Position numbers and translations under genes: made by a program. The notes under the pieces were generated by a model that was given only the letters and a program-made list of their open reading frames with translations, was not told where the DNA came from and ran no database searches. From SAR202 cluster bacterium AC-647-N09_OGT_505m (GTDB lineage Bacteria > Chloroflexota > Dehalococcoidia > UBA2985): a stretch of 6,214 bases of DNA. The stretch covers positions 1 to 6,214 of the forward strand of contig VEXC01000031.1 in assembly GCA_009391225.1 (NCBI GenBank), read 5' to 3'. Below are positions 1-6,214 of this stretch, piece by piece (within the stretch, counting starts at the first letter, position 1; every line of letters starts with the position of its first letter).

Positions 1-49
1 CATCATTCCCCGTATGAATACGTCTATCGACTGGGCCTGTTAACCCAGG

Positions 50-754
50 CTAAGGTATCTCAATACCCCACACGAGTCTAGATGCACTAAACATATCCGG
101 CTTAAAGAGCAAGTAATGCATGCCAGATTTGGTGGGGACCTCGTACGTTAGGTAGCCACTGACCTGTCCCCCAGACACCATAGCACCAGGCATCAACTCT
201 GGCTTCTTACCCAACCAAGAGGGCTCAAGCACTTGACCATTGGGGGTTACAAGACGGAATGCAGAACCAAACATATTTTGTCCCAATAGGTTGGCCGATC
301 CGTCACCTGTCCGCTTAACAGTGGTATCGAATACCACAAAGCGGCTCCCTGCCTCTGCATTTTCGTACGCACCCAATGAACTAGCCGTCTCCTCGAACTC
401 AACGACTACTGCCCACCCCTTAAGGATACCTGCCTCACCGACCGCTATCTCGATATCCTTATCTTGTGAGTCTGGCCTGCCTGGATACAGCATAGGGGCG
501 TCTTCGGCCACGCTGCCATTTTCCTGTCCTCCAGATGAAGCGAGGACACCAACAACCATTAAGAACACGAATATTCCGATGATTGAGAGACACCCGATCT
601 TAAGCTTAGAACTCTTTTTCTTTTCTGATGTTGCCGCAGGCGGTTCTTTTATTCGCACCCCACATTTTGGACATATCTCTGCTGCCTTCTTGATGACTTC
701 CCCGCAGGATGAGCAGAACTGTTCATCAGGACCTAGTGGTTGCTTCTCTGCCAT
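50..754 (-). CDS. Zinc-ribbon, single-pass membrane protein with extracellular DUF4352-like domain
   Basis: A 234-residue protein. Residues 14-32 form a short zinc ribbon (C14-x2-C17 ... C28-P-x-C31-G), followed by a Lys/Ser-rich stretch (45-52), one hydrophobic membrane segment (about 53-72) and a C-terminal half (about 100-234) that looks beta-rich and resembles the immunoglobulin/telokin-like DUF4352 class by layout ('GSRFVVFDTTVKR', 'YLTYEVP'). In such proteins the zinc ribbon is cytoplasmic and the beta domain is outside; the function is usually unknown. The ATG start is supported by GAGGG at 762-766 (minus strand), 7 bases upstream. A TATAAT on the same strand at 827-832, inside repeat copy 1, could drive it (73 bases from the start). 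It points the same way as the lipoprotein gene upstream but is separated from it by about 280 bp, so the two probably have separate promoters. No catalytic motif is seen. The gene is confident; the domain name is moderate. Confidence 0.85.
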   Translation of the reverse strand: MAEKQPLGPDEQFCSSCGEVIKKAAEICPKCGVRIKEPPAATSEKKKSSKLKIGCLSIIGIFVFLMVVGVLASSGGQENGSVAEDAPMLYPGRPDSQDKDIEIAVGEAGILKGWAVVVEFEETASSLGAYENAEAGSRFVVFDTTVKRTGDGSANLLGQNMFGSAFRLVTPNGQVLEPSWLGKKPELMPGAMVSGGQVSGYLTYEVPTKSGMHYLLFKPDMFSASRLVWGIEIP

Positions 755-770
755 ACTACGACCCTCGCTT

Positions 771-950
771 CCCTCTGCTGTACTTAATTTCCCCCGGGAC
801 CCTTAGGCGTTAGGAACCCTCCACCCATTATAACCCGTCGGGGGGATATCGCAGAGCAGGGGGGAGCAGTGACCTCAGGAGTAGGCATGCAGATACGAGG
901 ATGATATTCGGTGTTATAGGGCTGCTGTGAGATGAGGTATGCCTTCCTGA
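771..950 (-). repeat. Dispersed intergenic repeat, copy 1 (promoter-bearing)
   Basis: About 180 bp shared with 2206-2400 and 5456-5590. Module A (771-805) contains 'GTAC(T/C)TAAT' followed by a CCCGGG-like core and CTTAGG. Module B (811-950) contains the near-invariant 'CCATTATAACCCGTC', then 'GCAGAGCAGGGG', 'CGAGGATG', 'TTATAGGGCT' and 'TATGCC'. Order on the plus strand is A then B. Read on the minus strand, B carries TATAAT and A becomes the leader of the zinc-ribbon gene. Boundaries are by eye. It fills most of the 280-bp gap between the two minus-strand genes. Confidence 0.75.
827..832 (-). promoter_or_regulatory. Candidate -10 box TATAAT for the zinc-ribbon gene
   Basis: The minus strand reads CGGGTTATAATGGGTGG, a perfect bacterial -10 hexamer 73 bases before the ATG at 754. 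About 17 bases upstream the conserved sequence is CTGCTCTGCG, which is not a good -35 box, so an activator or another sigma factor would be needed. The box lies in the most conserved part of the dispersed repeat, so its conservation may reflect the repeat rather than promoter function. Confidence 0.4.
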
Positions 951-951
951 C

Positions 952-987
952 CAGTGTGTCACTGCTATCTAGGTGGCTTCCCCCTAG
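952..987 (-). terminator. Pair of hairpins downstream of the lipoprotein gene
   Basis: Two adjacent inverted repeats: CAGTG-TGT-CACTG (952-964, perfect, 3-base loop) and CTAGGTGG-CTT-CCCCCTAG (969-987, seven of eight pairs, 3-base loop). They lie 49-84 bases past the stop codon of the minus-strand lipoprotein gene and just before repeat copy 1. Neither is followed by a run of T on the minus strand, so factor-independent termination is doubtful. They could instead be mRNA-stabilising hairpins or repeat-end structures. Confidence 0.3.
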
Positions 988-1035
988 CTATTCTTGGTGC
1001 CATTGGTCTCGTCGAATGATACTGTACGAGTGCCA

Positions 1036-2205
1036 TCATATCCTGGTCCATGTGCCACAGCGCCAAGTAGAGAAACCAGCATCACCCTCGCTAATCTCTA
1101 TGACGGTCGGGTTGTTACCGTTTGCGATAATGCCCCCAAGCTCCTGGCTGAAGTCTGACAGGCGTCCCCAGTAGCATATGCCGTCGCCGTCTGCCCTATA
1201 TGTGCCTGGCTCGATGTGTACACCGACCTTATATGTGCCGTCACCAAACACAGTGGCTGGGTTATCCGGTGCTGTTTCTTGCAAAGGAACCCAACTTCCG
1301 CACCCTTGCGTCTCAAATCCAACGTCGGCTGATCCAATGGTGACTATCGCAGGCGTGTTGTTACCGTTTGCGATAATGTCATTGAGTTGGCCCCCAAATC
1401 CACTGAGGCGCGCCCAGTAACATATAGTGTTCCCCGTTGAACGGTAGGTACCAGGCTCTATGTCTACACCAACGACATGAGTGCCATTCCCAAATGCAGT
1501 TTGGAGGGCTACATCATAACTAGGAGTGGGTGTTGGGGCCGCAGCAGTAGCAGGTGATGGAGTATCAAGAGATGTTTCTAGCACACCGACTATCCAATAA
1601 GAAACCTGAGTAGCTAATATTTGCAAATAAAAGCGGCCGGTCAGTTCAAAGACTACCTCCGTAAACCCTTCCTCAAAGCTTGGACTCACATTGGCAATGA
1701 TTACACCTTCCTGCCAGACATTGACCATCACTCTAGAGGCTTCTGGGTAAGACCCTTTCGCCCTATAGAACAGTGTGAGTTTCCAAGGCGCCTGAGAAAT
1801 GGTGAAATACTCGGTCTGAAGCATTGGTGTGCCAACAGTGCTCTCCCAGCTATACAGTGGGTCGAATGTGATAGGCATGGCAGTTGGCACGGGACTAGGT
1901 AAAAGAGTCGCAGTTGGCACGGGACTTGGTAAAAGAGTCGCAGTTGGCATCGGTATGGTAGGTATGGGTGTGAGTGTAGGTGTCGGTGATGGAGTAGCTG
2001 TAGATGGAACTTGAGTGGGTGTGGAAGTAGGCGTAGCAGTAACCACAATTTCCTTAATAGTGACTTGAGGGGTTTGCGTTGGTAATGGCGTATATGTGGG
2101 TAGGGGTGTATACGTAGGCAGTGGCTCAGCACCCCCACCACAACCTCCCAGCACCAGCATAAGTACTGGCATTAGCAACAGTAGCGGTATGGCCTTCAGC
2201 TTCAT
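1036..2205 (-). CDS. Secreted lipoprotein with Pro/Thr linkers and two tandem C-terminal domains
   Basis: A 389-residue protein when started at the ATG at 2205. This start gives a textbook lipoprotein signal (MKLKA, hydrophobic run, LGGC lipobox with Cys22) and an AGGGGG site 7 bases upstream (2213-2218). A longer GTG start at 2229 would add eight residues before the signal and is less likely. Next come Pro/Thr-rich repeats (about 28-113: TYTPLP units, then PTATLLPSPV units), probably a cell-wall spacer. A beta-rich domain follows (about 114-212, 'ISQAPWKLTLFYRAKG ... FYLQILATQVSYWIVGV'), then a second short linker and two homologous domains (about 233-307 and 313-389). Each carries 'FG(N/D)GT--VGV-IEPGTYR', 'CYW-RLS-F' and 'IIANGNN', and ends with a second Cys (GCGSW, RCGTW), suggesting one disulfide each. 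Such domains occur in Chloroflexota and actinobacterial surface proteins; a binding role is plausible but unproven. Confidence 0.87.
   Translation of the reverse strand: MKLKAIPLLLLMPVLMLVLGGCGGGAEPLPTYTPLPTYTPLPTQTPQVTIKEIVVTATPTSTPTQVPSTATPSPTPTLTPIPTIPMPTATLLPSPVPTATLLPSPVPTAMPITFDPLYSWESTVGTPMLQTEYFTISQAPWKLTLFYRAKGSYPEASRVMVNVWQEGVIIANVSPSFEEGFTEVVFELTGRFYLQILATQVSYWIVGVLETSLDTPSPATAAAPTPTPSYDVALQTAFGNGTHVVGVDIEPGTYRSTGNTICYWARLSGFGGQLNDIIANGNNTPAIVTIGSADVGFETQGCGSWVPLQETAPDNPATVFGDGTYKVGVHIEPGTYRADGDGICYWGRLSDFSQELGGIIANGNNPTVIEISEGDAGFSTWRCGTWTRI
1880..1949 (-). repeat. 30-bp tandem repeat, 2.3 units, in the lipoprotein linker
   Basis: Two full units (1880-1909, 1910-1939) differ at one base, and a partial third unit follows (1940-1949). 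They encode the ten-residue unit PTATLLPSPV in the Pro/Thr spacer. Because the units are nearly identical and in frame, slippage could change spacer length without breaking the gene. Confidence 0.9.
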
Positions 2206-2400
2206 CTCTATGCCCCCTAGAACCCTCACCCCATTATAACTCGTCAGGGGTATGCCGCAGAGCAGGGGTGGTTGTGGAGGCGTGGGGTGTGGAAGCTGCG
2301 AGGATGCTATTGGGGCTTATAAGGCTATTGTGAGGTCGGTGGTGGGATATACCTCTATGCCCTCCGTTGTACCTAATTCTCCTTAGGGCTCCTAGCCTCG
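2206..2400 (-). repeat. Dispersed intergenic repeat, copy 2, with an extra module A
   Basis: Module B runs from about 2220 to 2351: 'ACCCTCACCCCATTATAAC', 'GCAGAGCAGGGG', 'GCTGCGAGGATGCTATTGG', 'TTATAAGGCTATTGTGAGG'. Directly after it, at 2359-2395, comes a module A ('GTTGTACCTAATTCTCC ... CTCCTAGC') matching 774-806 and 5460-5492, as though a second unit began there. The B part is flanked by CTCTATGCCC on both sides (2206-2215 and 2353-2362). On the minus strand the left end forms the lipoprotein gene's promoter region and ribosome site; the right-hand module A faces no start codon. Confidence 0.72.
2233..2238 (-). promoter_or_regulatory. Candidate -10 box TATAAT for the lipoprotein gene
   Basis: The minus strand reads GAGTTATAATGGGGTGAGGG, with the hexamer 28 bases before the ATG at 2205. 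That leaves a short leader containing the AGGGGG ribosome site. As in copies 1 and 3 there is no recognisable -35 box; the upstream conserved string is CTGCTCTGCGGCAT. The spacing to the gene is very plausible for a real promoter. Confidence 0.45.
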
Positions 2401-2566
2401 GGGAGTCGTTTTGATGGGTCATACCTGCTCCTGCCATACCCCTCTACCACACATCAACTTACCCTTGGTCCATACCTGAATACTGCCTTACACCATACAT
2501 TCTACTTGACGACATAAACCCATTATGACACGATTGAGCCGTCGAGTGAGCGAACGACGCAATCTT

Positions 2567-2570
2567 GGAG
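2567..2570 (+). promoter_or_regulatory. GGAG ribosome site deciding the TTG start of the PLD nuclease
   Basis: GGAG followed by six bases and TTG at 2577. The only other in-frame candidate is a TTG at 2565, which has no purine-rich site in front of it, and an in-frame stop at 2547-2549 closes the frame further upstream. The site therefore favours 2577. Confidence 0.6.
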
Positions 2571-2576
2571 AACAGC

Positions 2577-3401
2577 TTGAACACAGTATTCAAGGACGAG
2601 GAAGTTTCACACCGGATCCTCTCTATTCTTGGTGACGCCAAAGAATACGCCGTAATTGTAAGTCCCTACATTGCTCTCTGGGGACATGCCAAAAACGCAG
2701 TTCAATTGGCTGTACAACATCGGGTAAAGGTGATGTTCTTGGTTCGGAATGACACTAACGTTGTCCAGAGCGCAGACATGCAATGGCTTGTGGATAACCA
2801 AGTGGAAGTGTATGCACTAGACAGACTGCACGCAAAGATATATTTCAACGAGTCTAACGTCATAACCAGTTCCATGAACCTCACCCAATCTTCAAGTACA
2901 GATTCCTTTGAAATCGGCACCCTAGTCAACGACCCTGGAGAGGCCAAGGAAATCAGAAATTATGTCATTTCAATACTGTTCCCACTAGCGAACCCTCTGG
3001 GCAAGCAGCTTCAGGCATCAGCTCCTACAGCCAAAGCTAGGAAAATACCTCTCAACCACTCTGGCAAGGCCAAGGAAATCAGAAATGATGTCACTTCAAG
3101 ACTGGTAAACGCTGGTCGGCTCGCTCTTGGCGGCAAACCAAGCAAACCAGCCCCTTCCCGTACCAAGTCCCAAAGTGGGTTTTGCATAAGATGTGAGGAA
3201 CGGGTATCCATAGACTTGGCCAAACCGCTGTGCGATAAGTGCTACCAGATTTGGGCTCGATTTGGGGATGAAGATTATGAGGAGGAAGTGTGCCACTCCT
3301 GTGGAAAAGAGGCAGATGTTAGCTATGCCAAGCCTATGTGCTTAACTTGCTACAGGAGACAAGCTAAGGGCATCGGTGGCAACGCCGGTCTTCGATGGTA
3401 A
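2577..3401 (+). CDS. Phospholipase-D-fold nuclease with two C-terminal zinc ribbons
   Basis: 274 residues from the TTG at 2577 (278 if TTG 2565 is used). The N-terminal domain (about 1-130) has one HKD-type motif: H85-A-K87 ... T97-S-S-M-N101-L-T, then 'SFEIGTLV'. Single-HKD proteins of this fold usually work as dimers and cut nucleic acids or, less often, lipids. The usual Asp five residues after the Lys is Glu here (E92). A linker (about 124-195) includes a duplicated segment (AKEIRN-V-S). The C-terminus has two similar four-Cys zinc ribbons: C203-x2-C206 ... C219-x2-C222 and C239-x2-C242 ... C255-x2-C258, each ending KP(L/M)C--CY. Similar PLD-plus-ribbon proteins occur in archaea and environmental bacteria. 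The ribbons probably bind DNA or RNA. The gene stands alone; no partner is adjacent. A role in defence or DNA handling is inference. Confidence 0.85.
   Translation: MNTVFKDEEVSHRILSILGDAKEYAVIVSPYIALWGHAKNAVQLAVQHRVKVMFLVRNDTNVVQSADMQWLVDNQVEVYALDRLHAKIYFNESNVITSSMNLTQSSSTDSFEIGTLVNDPGEAKEIRNYVISILFPLANPLGKQLQASAPTAKARKIPLNHSGKAKEIRNDVTSRLVNAGRLALGGKPSKPAPSRTKSQSGFCIRCEERVSIDLAKPLCDKCYQIWARFGDEDYEEEVCHSCGKEADVSYAKPMCLTCYRRQAKGIGGNAGLRW
2928..3104 (+). repeat. In-frame 51-bp duplication inside the PLD nuclease gene
   Basis: 2928-2978 and 3054-3104 match at 44 of 51 positions by hand alignment, with the core 'GGCCAAGGAAATCAGAAAT' identical. The copies are 126 bases apart, exactly 42 codons, so both are read in the same frame (GEAKEIRNYVISIL and GKAKEIRNDVTSRL). 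This looks like a fairly recent partial duplication that lengthened the linker between nuclease and zinc ribbons. Confidence 0.85.
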
Positions 3402-3405
3402 AGAC

Positions 3406-3438
3406 AAAGCCAACCTACGCCATGCCGCTGGGCTTTTT
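3406..3438 (+). terminator. Possible factor-independent terminator after the PLD nuclease gene
   Basis: AAAGCC (3406-3411) can pair with GGCTTT (3431-3436), followed by further T bases (TTTTT at 3434-3438), starting 5 bases after the stop codon. The loop is long (19 bases), which weakens it, but position and T-run suit a terminator for the plus-strand gene. Confidence 0.45.
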
Positions 3439-3451
3439 CGTGCCTAACCAA

Positions 3452-3505
3452 TGGTGGGCGATACTGGACTCGAACCAGTGACCTCTTGCGTGTAAATCAA
3501 GAGGC
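3452..3505 (-). pseudogene. tRNA-Val(UAC) 3' half, tRNA remnant with encoded CCA
   Basis: Read on the minus strand: GCCTCTTGA, anticodon loop TTTACAC (anticodon UAC), 3' stem GCAAG, variable AGGTC, a perfect T arm ACTGG-TTCGAGT-CCAGT, acceptor 3' strand ATCGCCC, discriminator A and genomic CCA (3452-3454). No acceptor 5' strand (GGGCGAT expected) or D arm is found upstream, so similarity stops near tRNA position 25. One pair closing the anticodon loop is mismatched (A-G). A fragment running from the anticodon arm to the 3' end is what site-specific integration into a tRNA gene leaves at the far end of an island. It is not expected to yield a functional tRNA. Confidence 0.75.
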
Positions 3506-3582
3506 AGTTTGTTCCCACGTGTCAGCCCCTGTAACTCCATGAGGTTATTTATGCCTGAACAGTATCCCCGTGTAAATCAGTG

Positions 3583-3687
3583 TCATATGGCGTTGCAGTA
3601 AAAACTGCAGTAAGAATCTTCCAACAACCGCTTCTTTCTACGAAGCTCTGCAAGCATCTCTTCTAGTTCTTCAATGGACGCCCTCAT
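3583..3687 (-). CDS. Small coiled-coil ORF, 34 residues, doubtful
   Basis: From the ATG at 3687 it encodes 34 residues: a strongly charged heptad-like helix (MRASIEELEEMLAELRRKKRLLED) and a Cys/Tyr-rich tail, then TGA at 3583-3585. The frame is open back to a stop near 3735 with no better start. There is no clear ribosome site upstream. The helix composition is more protein-like than random sequence, so it may be a tiny real gene or, more likely, the C-terminal scrap of a larger decayed gene. It contains the 15-bp sequence that recurs at 5435-5449. No family recognised. Confidence 0.25.
   Translation of the reverse strand: MRASIEELEEMLAELRRKKRLLEDSYCSFYCNAI
3621..3635 (+). repeat. 15-bp direct repeat, left copy, flanking the nuclease gene
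   Basis: CCAACAACCGCTTCT, identical to 5435-5449. The two copies are in the same orientation and bracket the 520-residue nuclease gene, 1814 bp apart. Confidence 0.8.
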
Positions 3688-3775
3688 TAGAGGAGAAGAA
3701 GTTCGATAGAAATCAAGAGGGATATTTTGGGCCTAGGGCCACTCAATCAAACACCTAAAGCCATAGCCTCGAGGT

Positions 3776-3810
3776 TAGATGTAATCTATACTTCCGAGCA
3801 TCTAGATGCT
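3776..3810 (+). promoter_or_regulatory. Promoter/operator region of the nuclease gene: two nested inverted repeats
   Basis: TAGAT-GTA-ATCTA (3776-3788) and the perfect 14-base palindrome AGCATCTAGATGCT (3797-3810) share the half-site ATCTA/TAGAT. A good -10 box, TATACT (3787-3792), overlaps the end of the first; the second falls where transcription would begin, just before the ribosome site. No good -35 is seen. The layout suits a repressor or self-regulatory site that keeps a toxic nuclease low, but no regulator gene is visible nearby. The DNA inverted repeats are certain; the role is inferred. Confidence 0.4.
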
Positions 3811-3824
3811 ACCTAGGAGAGGTC

Positions 3825-5387
3825 ATGAAATTTGATGATGTAGTTCAAGCCATATCTCGAGTGAATGAGTTGCGCAGAATCTCAGGGGCGCATGTGGTAG
3901 ACCACAGGCAATTATCCAATGATGAACTTAAGGCAGCTATAACTAAAGCAAAACCACAGTATCTTCACCAAGAGACTGTGCATAACAACCTTGAAGCCGC
4001 TCTCTACAAGGAGCCACGAAACGATTTCCGGGTAGTCTCTCGTTTGATACTTATCGATGTGCTACTCAATCAATACGGCTTCGAAATACCATCCAGTCAA
4101 ATGGAAGAGAGAGTAATTGCAATAGAACAATCTATAGTGAATAGGTCCAATGAAATTGACCTAGTTGACCTGGGATGTACCAATCGCGAATCTGCCCACT
4201 ACAAGAATGTAGAGTTATATGACTTTGTTCTCAAGGTTGCATGGGAAAACGAGAACACTAAAAGTCCTGATGAAGTGAATCTACTTAGAAAACTTCGCGG
4301 CAGGCTAAATGTAACTGAATCAGATCACAGGCTCATAGAGGCCAAGTTAGGCAACTATCCAAAACCATCGAATGAATTACACTCACGAACTGAGATACAT
4401 GAGGTACGGAGATACCTGCAAGGAATGGGGCTACTCTTCGCCATAAGACATGATGATGACCAAGATGACGTGGATATAATTCCAGCCGAACTCGCCAACA
4501 TCATTAGAGAGATTTTAGGGCTGGAGCTAAGAGCAGATAGTTACCGTGCTCTAATGGACCACAAGCCTCTTCGCCGAAGAACTCATCTTATAGAGGTTCT
4601 AGAAAGATCCGAGATAGAAATTGTGAGAGGCGATACGGTGGACACATTAGTTGAACGCGTATTGGATTATGTTCGCCCGTCTAAGGCTATCACAAGCACG
4701 TCGCCAAGATACGGACTAAGTAACGATCAGCTCGCTCAATGGTGCCGCAACTTAAATGAGCCAGTTTCTGGAACAATGGACGATCGCCTCCAGCGCATTA
4801 TCTCGCATTACGATCAGTTAAGACCTCGCGTCGAACAAGAAATAGACGAAAGAGCATCTTGGTACGATTTCTATGCCGAATTGGCTTCGCGAAGCCATGA
4901 CGTATTGAGATTGCAACATATAATCGAAAAGGATCTAGAAATAGAAGCCAAGTTTGAAAATGCAACGGAGTACCTTTTCGCCGAAAAACTCAACCATAGA
5001 CCCCTGCGTCAACCCGGCAGTAATAACCCGGATGGATTAATAAGTTTGGGTAATAATTATGTAATGTGGGATAATAAATCCAAAGAAAGCCCCGTTAATT
5101 TGAGGGACCACCTCCGCCAATTCGATGAATACATGGATCAGGCGGATAAACCTGTCCCTATATTCCTGGTTATAGGCCCAAGGTTCAGCCCTGAATCAGA
5201 AGCGGAATCCATAAGATATCATGCTCGTCACTTCGATAGAAATATTGCCCTAATTACTGCAAATGAACTTAAGGATCTTGCAGAGGAATGGTCATCCACC
5301 TCAAATAATAATCGGGATGAGCCTTTCCCATTGGGCCTCTTAGCTGCAACCGGCAGGTTCGATAGAGCCCGCTTGGGTAAGCTATAG
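3825..5387 (+). CDS. Solitary restriction-endonuclease-like protein (TerB-like, SAP-like, PD-(D/E)XK)
   Basis: 520 residues; the ATG is preceded by AGGAG (3815-3819) at 5 bases. The N-terminal region (1-145) is helical and unrecognised. Residues 147-179 (SPDEVNLLRKLRGRLNVTES followed by DHRLIEAKLG) resemble a TerB-like helical module. Two SAP-like DNA-binding motifs follow: about 246-284 (HLIEVLERSEIEIVRGD then LVERVLDY) and 296-330 (LSNDQLAQWCRNL then VSGTMDDRLQRIISHY). The C-terminal 355-490 fits a PD-(D/E)XK nuclease: a Glu-bearing helix (F377-E378 ... E382), P402-D403, strand YVMW with D416-N-K418, then a helix with Q432, and an alternating 'PIFLVIGPRF ... IALITANELKDLAEEW' tail. These residues are the expected metal-binding and catalytic set. 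DNA cleavage is therefore likely; target and specificity are unknown. No methyltransferase is next to it, so it could recognise modified or foreign DNA, or act in repair. Base composition seems lower than the left genes (21/60 G+C at 4081-4140 against 31/60 at 1261-1320), which fits transfer. Confidence 0.82.
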   Translation: MKFDDVVQAISRVNELRRISGAHVVDHRQLSNDELKAAITKAKPQYLHQETVHNNLEAALYKEPRNDFRVVSRLILIDVLLNQYGFEIPSSQMEERVIAIEQSIVNRSNEIDLVDLGCTNRESAHYKNVELYDFVLKVAWENENTKSPDEVNLLRKLRGRLNVTESDHRLIEAKLGNYPKPSNELHSRTEIHEVRRYLQGMGLLFAIRHDDDQDDVDIIPAELANIIREILGLELRADSYRALMDHKPLRRRTHLIEVLERSEIEIVRGDTVDTLVERVLDYVRPSKAITSTSPRYGLSNDQLAQWCRNLNEPVSGTMDDRLQRIISHYDQLRPRVEQEIDERASWYDFYAELASRSHDVLRLQHIIEKDLEIEAKFENATEYLFAEKLNHRPLRQPGSNNPDGLISLGNNYVMWDNKSKESPVNLRDHLRQFDEYMDQADKPVPIFLVIGPRFSPESEAESIRYHARHFDRNIALITANELKDLAEEWSSTSNNNRDEPFPLGLLAATGRFDRARLGKL

Positions 5388-5434
5388 TTCGCAATCCCTG
5401 CCAATGCTGCATCACAAAGCTATGTCCGATCCCC

Positions 5435-5449
5435 CCAACAACCGCTTCT
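5435..5449 (+). repeat. 15-bp direct repeat, right copy, flanking the nuclease gene
   Basis: CCAACAACCGCTTCT, identical to 3621-3635. It lies 47 bases past the nuclease stop codon and directly before module A of repeat copy 3. Confidence 0.8.
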
Positions 5450-5455
5450 GCTTGG

Positions 5456-5590
5456 CCCCAGCTGTACCTAATACCCCATGGGACTCCTAGCCCTGTGTAC
5501 CCCTCACCCCATTATAACCCGTCAGGAGGATGCCGTAGAGCAGGGGCGGTTGTGGGGGGAGTGGGCGTGAATGCTGCGAGGATACTGAGG
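5456..5590 (-). repeat. Dispersed intergenic repeat, copy 3 (no downstream gene)
   Basis: Module A (5456-5492, 'GCTGTACCTAAT', CCCATGGG, 'CTCCTAGCC') and module B (5499-5584, 'CCCTCACCCCATTATAACCC', 'GTAGAGCAGGGG', 'GTTGTGG', 'GCTGCGAGGAT'). TATAAT on the minus strand is at 5511-5516. Similarity to copies 1 and 2 ends at the tRNA-Ala remnant. The minus-strand promoter, if active, would fire toward the end of the nuclease gene with no ORF in between. The short stretch 5388-5434 before it holds nothing I can identify. Confidence 0.72.
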
Positions 5591-5624
5591 GGATTCGAAC
5601 CACTGACCCCCTGCTTGCAAAGCC
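5584..5624 (-). pseudogene. tRNA-Ala(UGC) 3' part, tRNA remnant
   Basis: Minus strand: loop TTTGCAA (anticodon UGC), 3' anticodon stem GCAGG, variable GGGTC, T arm AGTGG-TTCGAAT-CCCCT with one mismatched pair, then CAGTA. The 5' anticodon stem is lost (expected CCTGC, here TTGGC), as are the D arm and acceptor 5' strand. The 3' end dissolves into the repeat sequence with no CCA. The 5' side starts 2 bases after the protease stop codon. It cannot be a working tRNA; it reads as an integration or recombination scar. Confidence 0.65.
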
Positions 5625-5626
5625 AA

Positions 5627-6214
5627 TCACTCTTGGGTCGGCAATATCGCTAATTGTTGGTCAAGAGGAAAATCGAGGAATGCTAAAAATTCAGTATGAA
5701 ATTCTGCGCCTGCTATTCCATATGCCTTGACGAATGCTCCCTCCCAACCTAGTTCCTCAACGTTAGGGTAAAACACGTCTAGAAAGACCTCATGCCCGAA
5801 CTTGTGAGCCAGCAATGCATAAAACCAGACATATGGACGGTAACCCGGGATGTAATCCGGGAGTTCCAATAACTCTTCCATGGTCGCTTCAAAACTATAA
5901 GGTGTGCTTCCCACGTCTAGGTCGCCAGAACGATGGGCTTGACTCAGTGCGGTGAAAGCCATGTAATCAGCACTCGCTTCTATATGGAAACGCGGGCCTC
6001 GTAATCTGGTACTAGCCCGCTCGTCATAATCTTTGGTTTGTAGATGTGCGTGCTGGACTGCATGAAAATACTCGTGAAATACTAATTTCTGAGCACTCCA
6101 CCCAATTCCAGGTAACGATGTAATGAAATAATGGATGCCCCAATCCCGATTCCCGTTACGTCCTGCTTCCCGGGTACGGTTTTCTACCTCTCCAGCGCTA
6201 ACTGCGCGGTAGTA
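5627..6214 (-). CDS. HExxH zinc metalloprotease, C-terminal part (runs off the window)
   Basis: The reading frame is open from the right edge to the TGA at 5627-5629, giving 195 visible residues; the N-terminus lies beyond the window. The internal ATG at 5962 is not the real start, because the coding signature continues upstream of it. Visible residues 43-51 carry the zinc motif in 'KLVFHEYFH' (H47, E48, H51), and 28 residues later 'IEASADYM' offers the third ligand Glu79 with the usual nearby Asp83, the gluzincin layout. The C-terminal half ('YRPYVWFYALLAHKFGHEVFLDVF' in two pieces, 'GWEGAFVKAYGI', 'FHTEFLAFLDFPLDQQLAILP') is the helical tail common in such peptidases of Chloroflexota. It is probably secreted, but the signal peptide would be outside the window. 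The substrate is unknown. Confidence 0.82.
   Translation of the reverse strand, partial: YYRAVSAGEVENRTREAGRNGNRDWGIHYFITSLPGIGWSAQKLVFHEYFHAVQHAHLQTKDYDERASTRLRGPRFHIEASADYMAFTALSQAHRSGDLDVGSTPYSFEATMEELLELPDYIPGYRPYVWFYALLAHKFGHEVFLDVFYPNVEELGWEGAFVKAYGIAGAEFHTEFLAFLDFPLDQQLAILPTQE

Follow-up and report, generated by a model that had tools for sequence, protein, structure and literature searches.

We analysed a 6,214-nucleotide (nt) stretch of DNA, hereafter the window, from SAR202 cluster bacterium AC-647-N09_OGT_505m (contig VEXC01000031.1, positions 1 to 6,214). Its gene at 3825..5387 probably encodes a DNA-cutting enzyme whose cutting half resembles the restriction enzyme FokI. The C-terminal domain has a FokI/BspD6I-type PD-(D/E)XK cleavage fold with an intact active site, from which activity is predicted, and the gene is an accessory one that seems to have been transferred by itself in some of its relatives. 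The protein may be an undescribed, accessory defence-like nuclease: we found no description of a FokI-type/SAP lone nuclease family among the open-access papers listed by our literature searches. Our leading, if tentative, reading is a solitary, horizontally spread restriction-type nuclease that works as a type IV-like immune enzyme, its activity, target and dimerisation all being predicted.

The C-terminal domain has a FokI-type fold and an intact active site

The open reading frame (ORF) begins with ATG and encodes 520 amino acids (P0001); it is a complete coding sequence, with mostly full-length homologues, at the position given in the original prediction, which was made from the letters of the window alone. 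That prediction had also called a restriction-endonuclease fold, and structure comparison makes the call more specific: residues 340-520 (4842..5384; features are on the forward strand unless marked) form, by fold comparison and a profile scan, a PD-(D/E)XK domain of the FokI/BspD6I cleavage-domain type. The signature residues lie where they had been predicted, with P402-D403 at 5028..5033 and D416-N417-K418 at 5070..5078, and the alignments add two invariant acidic residues of the nuclease helix, E374 and E378 (4944..4958). In an alignment of 24 rows (the window protein and 23 loci), E374, E378, D403, G404, W415, D416, N417 and K418 are identical in every row, and P402 is replaced by Ala in two. 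The contigs of L023-L025 end ahead of the nuclease domain; L024 and L025 are absent from this alignment, and L023 is included but stops before the domain. E374, E378, D403, D416 and K418 are also invariant in a 13-row alignment reaching down to 20% identity, and the catalytic Asp, Asp and Lys are thus kept in 24/24 and 13/13 rows. Judged from these alignments, conservation of the active site is far beyond chance.

The Pfam family of the FokI domain, PF09254, scores the window protein at 14.3 bits and the isolated domain at 16.5 bits, below the gathering cut-off of 25, and we therefore regard the nuclease as a structural relative of PF09254 and not as a Pfam member. PF09254 was above cut-off in none of 15 carrier genomes, and the later version PF09254.19 is precomputed for 8 of 120 homologues. 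Neither the protein on its own nor alignments of the whole protein, the nuclease or the N-terminal part found a meaningful match among PDB sequences. A Holliday junction resolving enzyme stands among the lower Foldseek rows for the nuclease (E 0.6).

FokI and the window protein share a C-terminal cleavage domain of the same fold and the same PD...DXK order, and the DNA-binding half of FokI contains winged-helix modules, to which the winged-helix-like region described below is comparable. They differ in that identity is 13-17%, the Pfam score falls short of the cut-off, and the nuclease here has a probable SAP motif, a different and strongly conserved N-terminal half, and no linked methyltransferase that we could see. 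The FokI row in VIA spans two domains at a root-mean-square deviation of 12.8 Å, so that only the cleavage domain is well matched. The recognition domain of N.BspD6I / R.BspD6I has no sequence match in the nuclease here, and we noticed no small nuclease subunit beside the gene, a point on which no specific search was made.

The N-terminal half is winged-helix-like and strongly conserved

Instead of a clear TerB domain, the N-terminal half has a winged-helix-like region into which a helical segment is inserted. It begins with helices at residues 1-48 (3825..3968; mean pairwise identity 56%), followed by a winged-helix-like region at residues 49-235 (3969..4529) with the insertion at about residues 83-187. 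Identity between phyla is 56% and 48% in the N-terminal part, 58% in the nuclease and 37% in the SAP stretch (L023 excluded). The TerB-like helical module of the original prediction shrank to a helix-hairpin half-motif at residues 142-170 (4248..4334): profile comparison by hhalign with 15 TerB domains (of 27 TerB places found) matched only 26-29 columns at a probability of 38-83%, the higher values coming from a piece picked around the motif, and 30 column shuffles and a reversed profile gave at most 1% and 0.1%, respectively. TerB was absent when 25 whole homologues were scanned (21 families matched at E≤1), and it does not occur among the 25 families viewed, of 26 in all, for 25 N-terminal pieces (E≤10). 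A full TerB domain (PF05099) was rejected on these family-scan misses and the half-motif; TerB is also not among the VIA rows shown for the nuclease protein, which excludes nothing.

Of two SAP-like motifs in the original prediction, the one at residues 297-332 (4713..4820) is supported by SAP matches in homologues and by weak profile matches of this stretch to DEK, a putative DNA-binding protein and MKL1 (E 0.07-0.3). SAP_new25 matches 12 of 25 homologues and SAP 6 of 25 (E≤1); homologue P0121 exceeds the SAP (PF02037) cut-off at 31.0 against 23.9 bits, and precomputed SAP annotation covers 2 of 120 homologues in one listing and 9 of 120 in another. The window protein itself displayed no SAP match in the profile scans. 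The other motif, at residues 237-289 (4533..4691), is a possible first SAP-like helical stretch seen by eye in the alignment, with no library match.

A single-copy accessory gene with a very patchy distribution

A search at E≤1e-3 returned 206 proteins including the query (7997 candidates scored), and the 120 homologues listed are mostly 513-524 amino acids long and 52-89% identical. An alignment query found 26 loci in a one-genome-per-species collection, with carriers labelled Chloroflexi/SAR202, Armatimonadetes, Myxococcales/Polyangiaceae, Firmicutes-type, Aegiribacteria, Fermentibacteraceae-type, Kiritimatiellae, Opitutales, one Thorarchaeota and some simply bacteria. The Thorarchaeota label (L011; coverage 0.33 in the contig name) may be a binning error, since its nuclease is 92.6% identical to the Aegiribacteria copy in L013. 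Each of 18 carrier genomes searched holds one copy. Of seven close pairs, two gave no dS value; in the other five the ratio of nonsynonymous to synonymous substitution rates (dN/dS) lies between 0.055 and 0.14, and dS exceeds 1.4 in two of them.

Matches were found in 2 of 400 genomes of the phylum and 3 of 197 genomes of the order of G001. In the orders of G011 and G607 they numbered 3 of 177 and 2 of 71 genomes, and in the classes of G010 and G018 (the latter including the G607 order) 1 of 288 and 3 of 97. These counts include the starting genomes and other known carriers, one match is distant (7e-63) and another spans residues 1-112 only; genome completeness is not given, and incomplete genomes may hide copies. 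A first scan of genome contigs found no relative among 32 stretches. With so patchy a distribution we rejected a housekeeping gene; the original prediction had named a housekeeping repair context among the findings that would refute it.

The nuclease gene has no conserved partner

Clustering of 393 ORFs of the 26 loci, the nuclease family's own included, gave no neighbour family in more than three loci, and five of the six three-locus groups come from the syntenic SAR202 trio L001/L003/L004. Motifs of N6/N4 or C5 methyltransferases occur in 0 of 274 neighbouring ORFs of at least 120 amino acids within up to 10 kb of the 26 loci; the test was a motif search only, without a positive control. On this result we rejected a linked restriction-modification pair at these loci: the gene is a lone nuclease without a linked methyltransferase, as type IV enzymes are, and lacks the linked methyltransferase expected of a type IIS enzyme. 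The original prediction had reported no methyltransferase or helicase in the window, and none was matched in the five main window ORFs scanned; nor do homologues always lie beside a methyltransferase, which it would have taken as a sign of an ordinary type II system.

It had further suggested surveying homologue neighbourhoods for conserved partners and defence islands. Pfam matches of ten near neighbours comprised DUF6119, DUF3800, three Ion_trans, a metallophosphatase with a sub-cut-off STAND match and ordinary enzymes, with one protein matchless. The PADLOC scan took in 101 of 123 listed near-neighbour ORFs (22 spurious-looking or syntenic-duplicate ORFs excluded) and matched 61 families. 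From clustering, Pfam and PADLOC together, we see no conserved partner and at best a weak defence-island signal, a few loci having defence-type or, by eye, toxin-antitoxin-type neighbours. L021 is one locus that does look defence-like, with a Fic-like PDC-S72 match at 8523-9494 upstream of the nuclease and, 24 base pairs (bp) downstream of it, the large metallophosphatase protein with the sub-cut-off STAND match (11542-14553). An Ion_trans (PF00520) gene lies downstream on the same strand in L007 (5940-6341), L008 (6407-6994) and L020 (11544-12344), after a 5-bp gap in L020; the frames look interrupted in L007 and L008, and that of L007 reaches the contig end. In L005, a DUF6119 protein (1945-3573; 2.5e-129; no PADLOC match) starts 4 bp past the nuclease gene.

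The gene appears to have moved alone in some relatives

The signs of mobility go beyond what the original prediction had noted. Among L011, L013, L023 and L024, blastn finds the gene in common at 83-95% DNA identity together with about 86-147 bp upstream, and L015/L016 share it at 89% with 70 bp upstream. The shared stretch of L011/L013 stops at the stop codon; L023 and L024 end inside the gene, so that among these four the downstream side is checkable for L011/L013 only. No flank match was found within either group at E≤1e-6, comparing up to 10 kb on the longer contigs (the L011, L015 and L023 contigs are about 5 kb). The L007/L008 pair shares a downstream piece of the ion-channel gene (blastn). 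We rejected the L005/L010 pair (94.9% identical DNA) as mobility evidence, because the match starts 14 bp into the L005 contig and transposase-like ORFs (by eye) follow it in L010. In that locus (4505-5788) the match ends near nuclease residue 500 and the transposase-like ORFs are on the opposite strand; the L010 copy looks like an insertion-sequence disruption.

The window holds no complete transfer RNA (tRNA) gene, and its 3452..3501 (minus strand) is the 3' part of a tRNA-Val gene, a possible attachment-site remnant. Of 118 genomes of the G001 order, 106 contain sequence that matches the stretch at about 3450-3501, with the best rows at 88-94% across some 50 bases. Of 12 such loci analysed with ARAGORN, 11 have a complete tRNA-Val at the matched place (anticodons 5 TAC, 1 GAC, 5 CAC); aligned with one of these, the window retains the tRNA only from roughly the anticodon loop through CCA, the 5' part being missing. 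An 11-nt exact direct repeat, CGTGTAAATCA, has one copy in the anticodon-loop part (3489-3499) and the other 80 bp further (3569-3579), and none of 200 shuffles gave two matches. A second, degenerate tRNA-like 3' fragment lies at 5579..5620 (minus strand; T-loop motif 5591-5601), its extent and identity judged by eye. A 20-nt sequence identical to the 3' end of the neighbouring tRNA-Arg forms the edge of the shared stretch in L023 (3918-3937, 4038-4057), and L011 has a degenerate counterpart there (by eye). After the nuclease gene, L009 has an integrase-like ORF (by eye) and a cluster of tRNA genes. The linkage is not general, because T-loop motifs lie within 2 kb of only 5 of 32 loci, the window included, and their higher density near the gene (12 in 108,850 bases against 11 in 282,405 further off) comes mainly from the tRNA clusters of L009 and L023.

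The window gene lies between two copies of an exact 15-nt direct repeat (3621..3635 and 5435..5449). Exact direct repeats of at least 15 nt occur on both sides in 3 of 23 loci, compared with 11 of 756 overlapping control windows (one-sided Fisher test, nominal p 0.007). Those of L004 and L014 are 30 and 24 nt long; that of L004, which shows inverted symmetry, may represent a dispersed hairpin. A search for an empty site via a neighbouring protein gave a best other genome at 57% identity, judged likely paralogous, and an Rfam scan of the window gave a chance-level match only.

A sister family occurs in haloarchaea and a provirus

Many haloarchaea have a sister family of 546-amino-acid proteins (24% identity over 385 columns, E 4e-15), for some of which UniRef gives the name 'Restriction endonuclease'. 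Homology to the window protein extends across the last two thirds and includes the same active site; the sister proteins are 26 residues longer and about 20% identical overall. PF09254.19 is precomputed in 120 of 120 listed members, and PF09254.17 gave no match to two tested at E≤0.1. On the Natrinema megaplasmid pNVE500 (L031), the sister gene is about 2.9 kb from a site-specific integrase gene. The family is also represented in Humcor1, described by its authors (PMC7911831) as an induced provirus of Halorubrum coriense, where an Ion_trans gene lies two genes away on the opposite strand. The first scan of viral contigs found no relative among 18 stretches, and the second found one (L033) among 8.

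Other genes of the window

A PLD-like protein (2565-3401; PLDc_2 5e-9) with C-terminal zinc-ribbon-like cysteines and weak DrmC/DpdK similarity sits beyond the tRNA-Val fragment as seen from the nuclease gene; it was rejected as a partner, since none of four window ORFs had a blastp match (1e-3) among the 393 ORFs. On the minus strand, 1036-2229 encodes a protein with a Pro/Thr-rich stretch and two Rv1352/Rv1906c domain matches (NF053833, 1.9e-46), and 50-754 a zinc-ribbon plus DUF4352 protein.

Discussion

The N-terminal part is nearly as conserved between phyla as the nuclease, from which we infer a shared target rather than a diversifying specificity; a shared target and the missing linked methyltransferase favour a type IV-like enzyme. 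Type IV restriction enzymes, a comparison of how the systems work, differ in that no known modification-reading domain was identified in the nuclease here. In the mechanism we propose, the SAP motif and winged helix would hold DNA, and the conserved N-terminal half would recognise one common feature (a modified base, a particular DNA structure or a state linked to infection) and not a varying short sequence. Recognition would free the cleavage domains, which might then pair in the manner of FokI and cleave the offending DNA on both strands; the gene would spread from genome to genome partly via tRNA-linked integration sites and proviruses. PMC4081073 describes the FokI cleavage domain as having one catalytic site, as restrained by the DNA-binding half, and as thought to pair for double-strand cutting. 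By analogy, the cleavage domain here is probably gated too.

Several observations weigh against a type IV-like immune enzyme. Every printed PF09254 score is under the cut-off, and the nuclease protein has no match in PADLOC (0 families of PADLOC-DB 2.0.0 at E≤1), NCBIfam or PHROGs. The weak defence-island signal was judged without control neighbourhoods: 36 of the 61 PADLOC families trace to three proteins, namely a large helicase beside L006 (29), the Fic-like protein of L021 (5) and an NYN/LabA-like protein of L024 (2), and many of the neighbours viewed resemble ordinary chromosomal genes (by eye). The SAR202 trio keeps the gene at the same place with shared flanks, a position that would also suit a useful host gene. 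An N-6 DNA methylase is annotated about 5.4 kb upstream of the Natrinema sister gene, beyond the 26 loci.

Among the alternatives, a selfish single-gene element, whose nuclease aids the spread of its own gene (homing-like or via tRNA 3' ends) with no host service, is unlikely but not far-fetched. It would account for the sharing of gene and short leader alone, the tRNA fragments found at the unit's borders in the window and in L023, and the excess of flanking repeats. Homing predicts the same flanks, yet the flanks differ; moreover, the unit contains no mobility enzyme, the SAR202 trio retains its flanks, and few loci have a nearby T-loop motif. An accessory repair or recombination nuclease, for instance for branched or damaged DNA, is improbable in our view: SAP motifs occur in repair proteins and the Holliday junction resolving enzyme among the Foldseek rows would fit, but the very patchy distribution and the absence of a conserved neighbour of any kind in the loci surveyed would not.

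We give still less credence to an ordinary type IIS restriction enzyme with its protective methyltransferase elsewhere in the genome. The FokI-type cleavage domain and the Natrinema methylase are in its favour, but no methyltransferase motif was found near the 26 loci, the rest of the genomes not having been searched. The sequence specificity of restriction enzymes diversifies, and a recognition half conserved across phyla misfits that pattern. According to PMC4081073, type IIS enzymes usually come with two methyltransferases, which would lend this explanation some support. Least probable of all, and very doubtful, is a two-gene system in which a membrane ion channel serves as second effector in at least some lineages. 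Of the 10 Ion_trans places that exceed the cut-off in 27 genomes, the downstream genes account for three, and Humcor1 has such a gene nearby; yet 3 of the 23 loci whose downstream side is covered have the gene, which the window lacks. Moreover, L007 and L008 are related (proteins 79.5% identical), and their channel frames look interrupted.

If the type IV-like reading is true, single-gene enzymes of bacteria and archaea that lack a methylase make use of FokI-type cleavage domains. The conservation of the sensor half would then indicate some mark shared by foreign or abnormal DNA, and nuclease engineers would take an interest in a FokI-type domain that is gated by nature. A bolder version, which we think rather unlikely, is a minimal mobile immune unit of gene and promoter region that relocates alone between chromosomal sites, some of them at tRNA 3' ends, and whose conserved sensor half keeps the FokI-type domain under control until it meets a single universal mark of foreign DNA, in bacteria and haloarchaea alike. 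The gene-only sharing offers a simple case for how lone accessory genes spread without a recombinase of their own.
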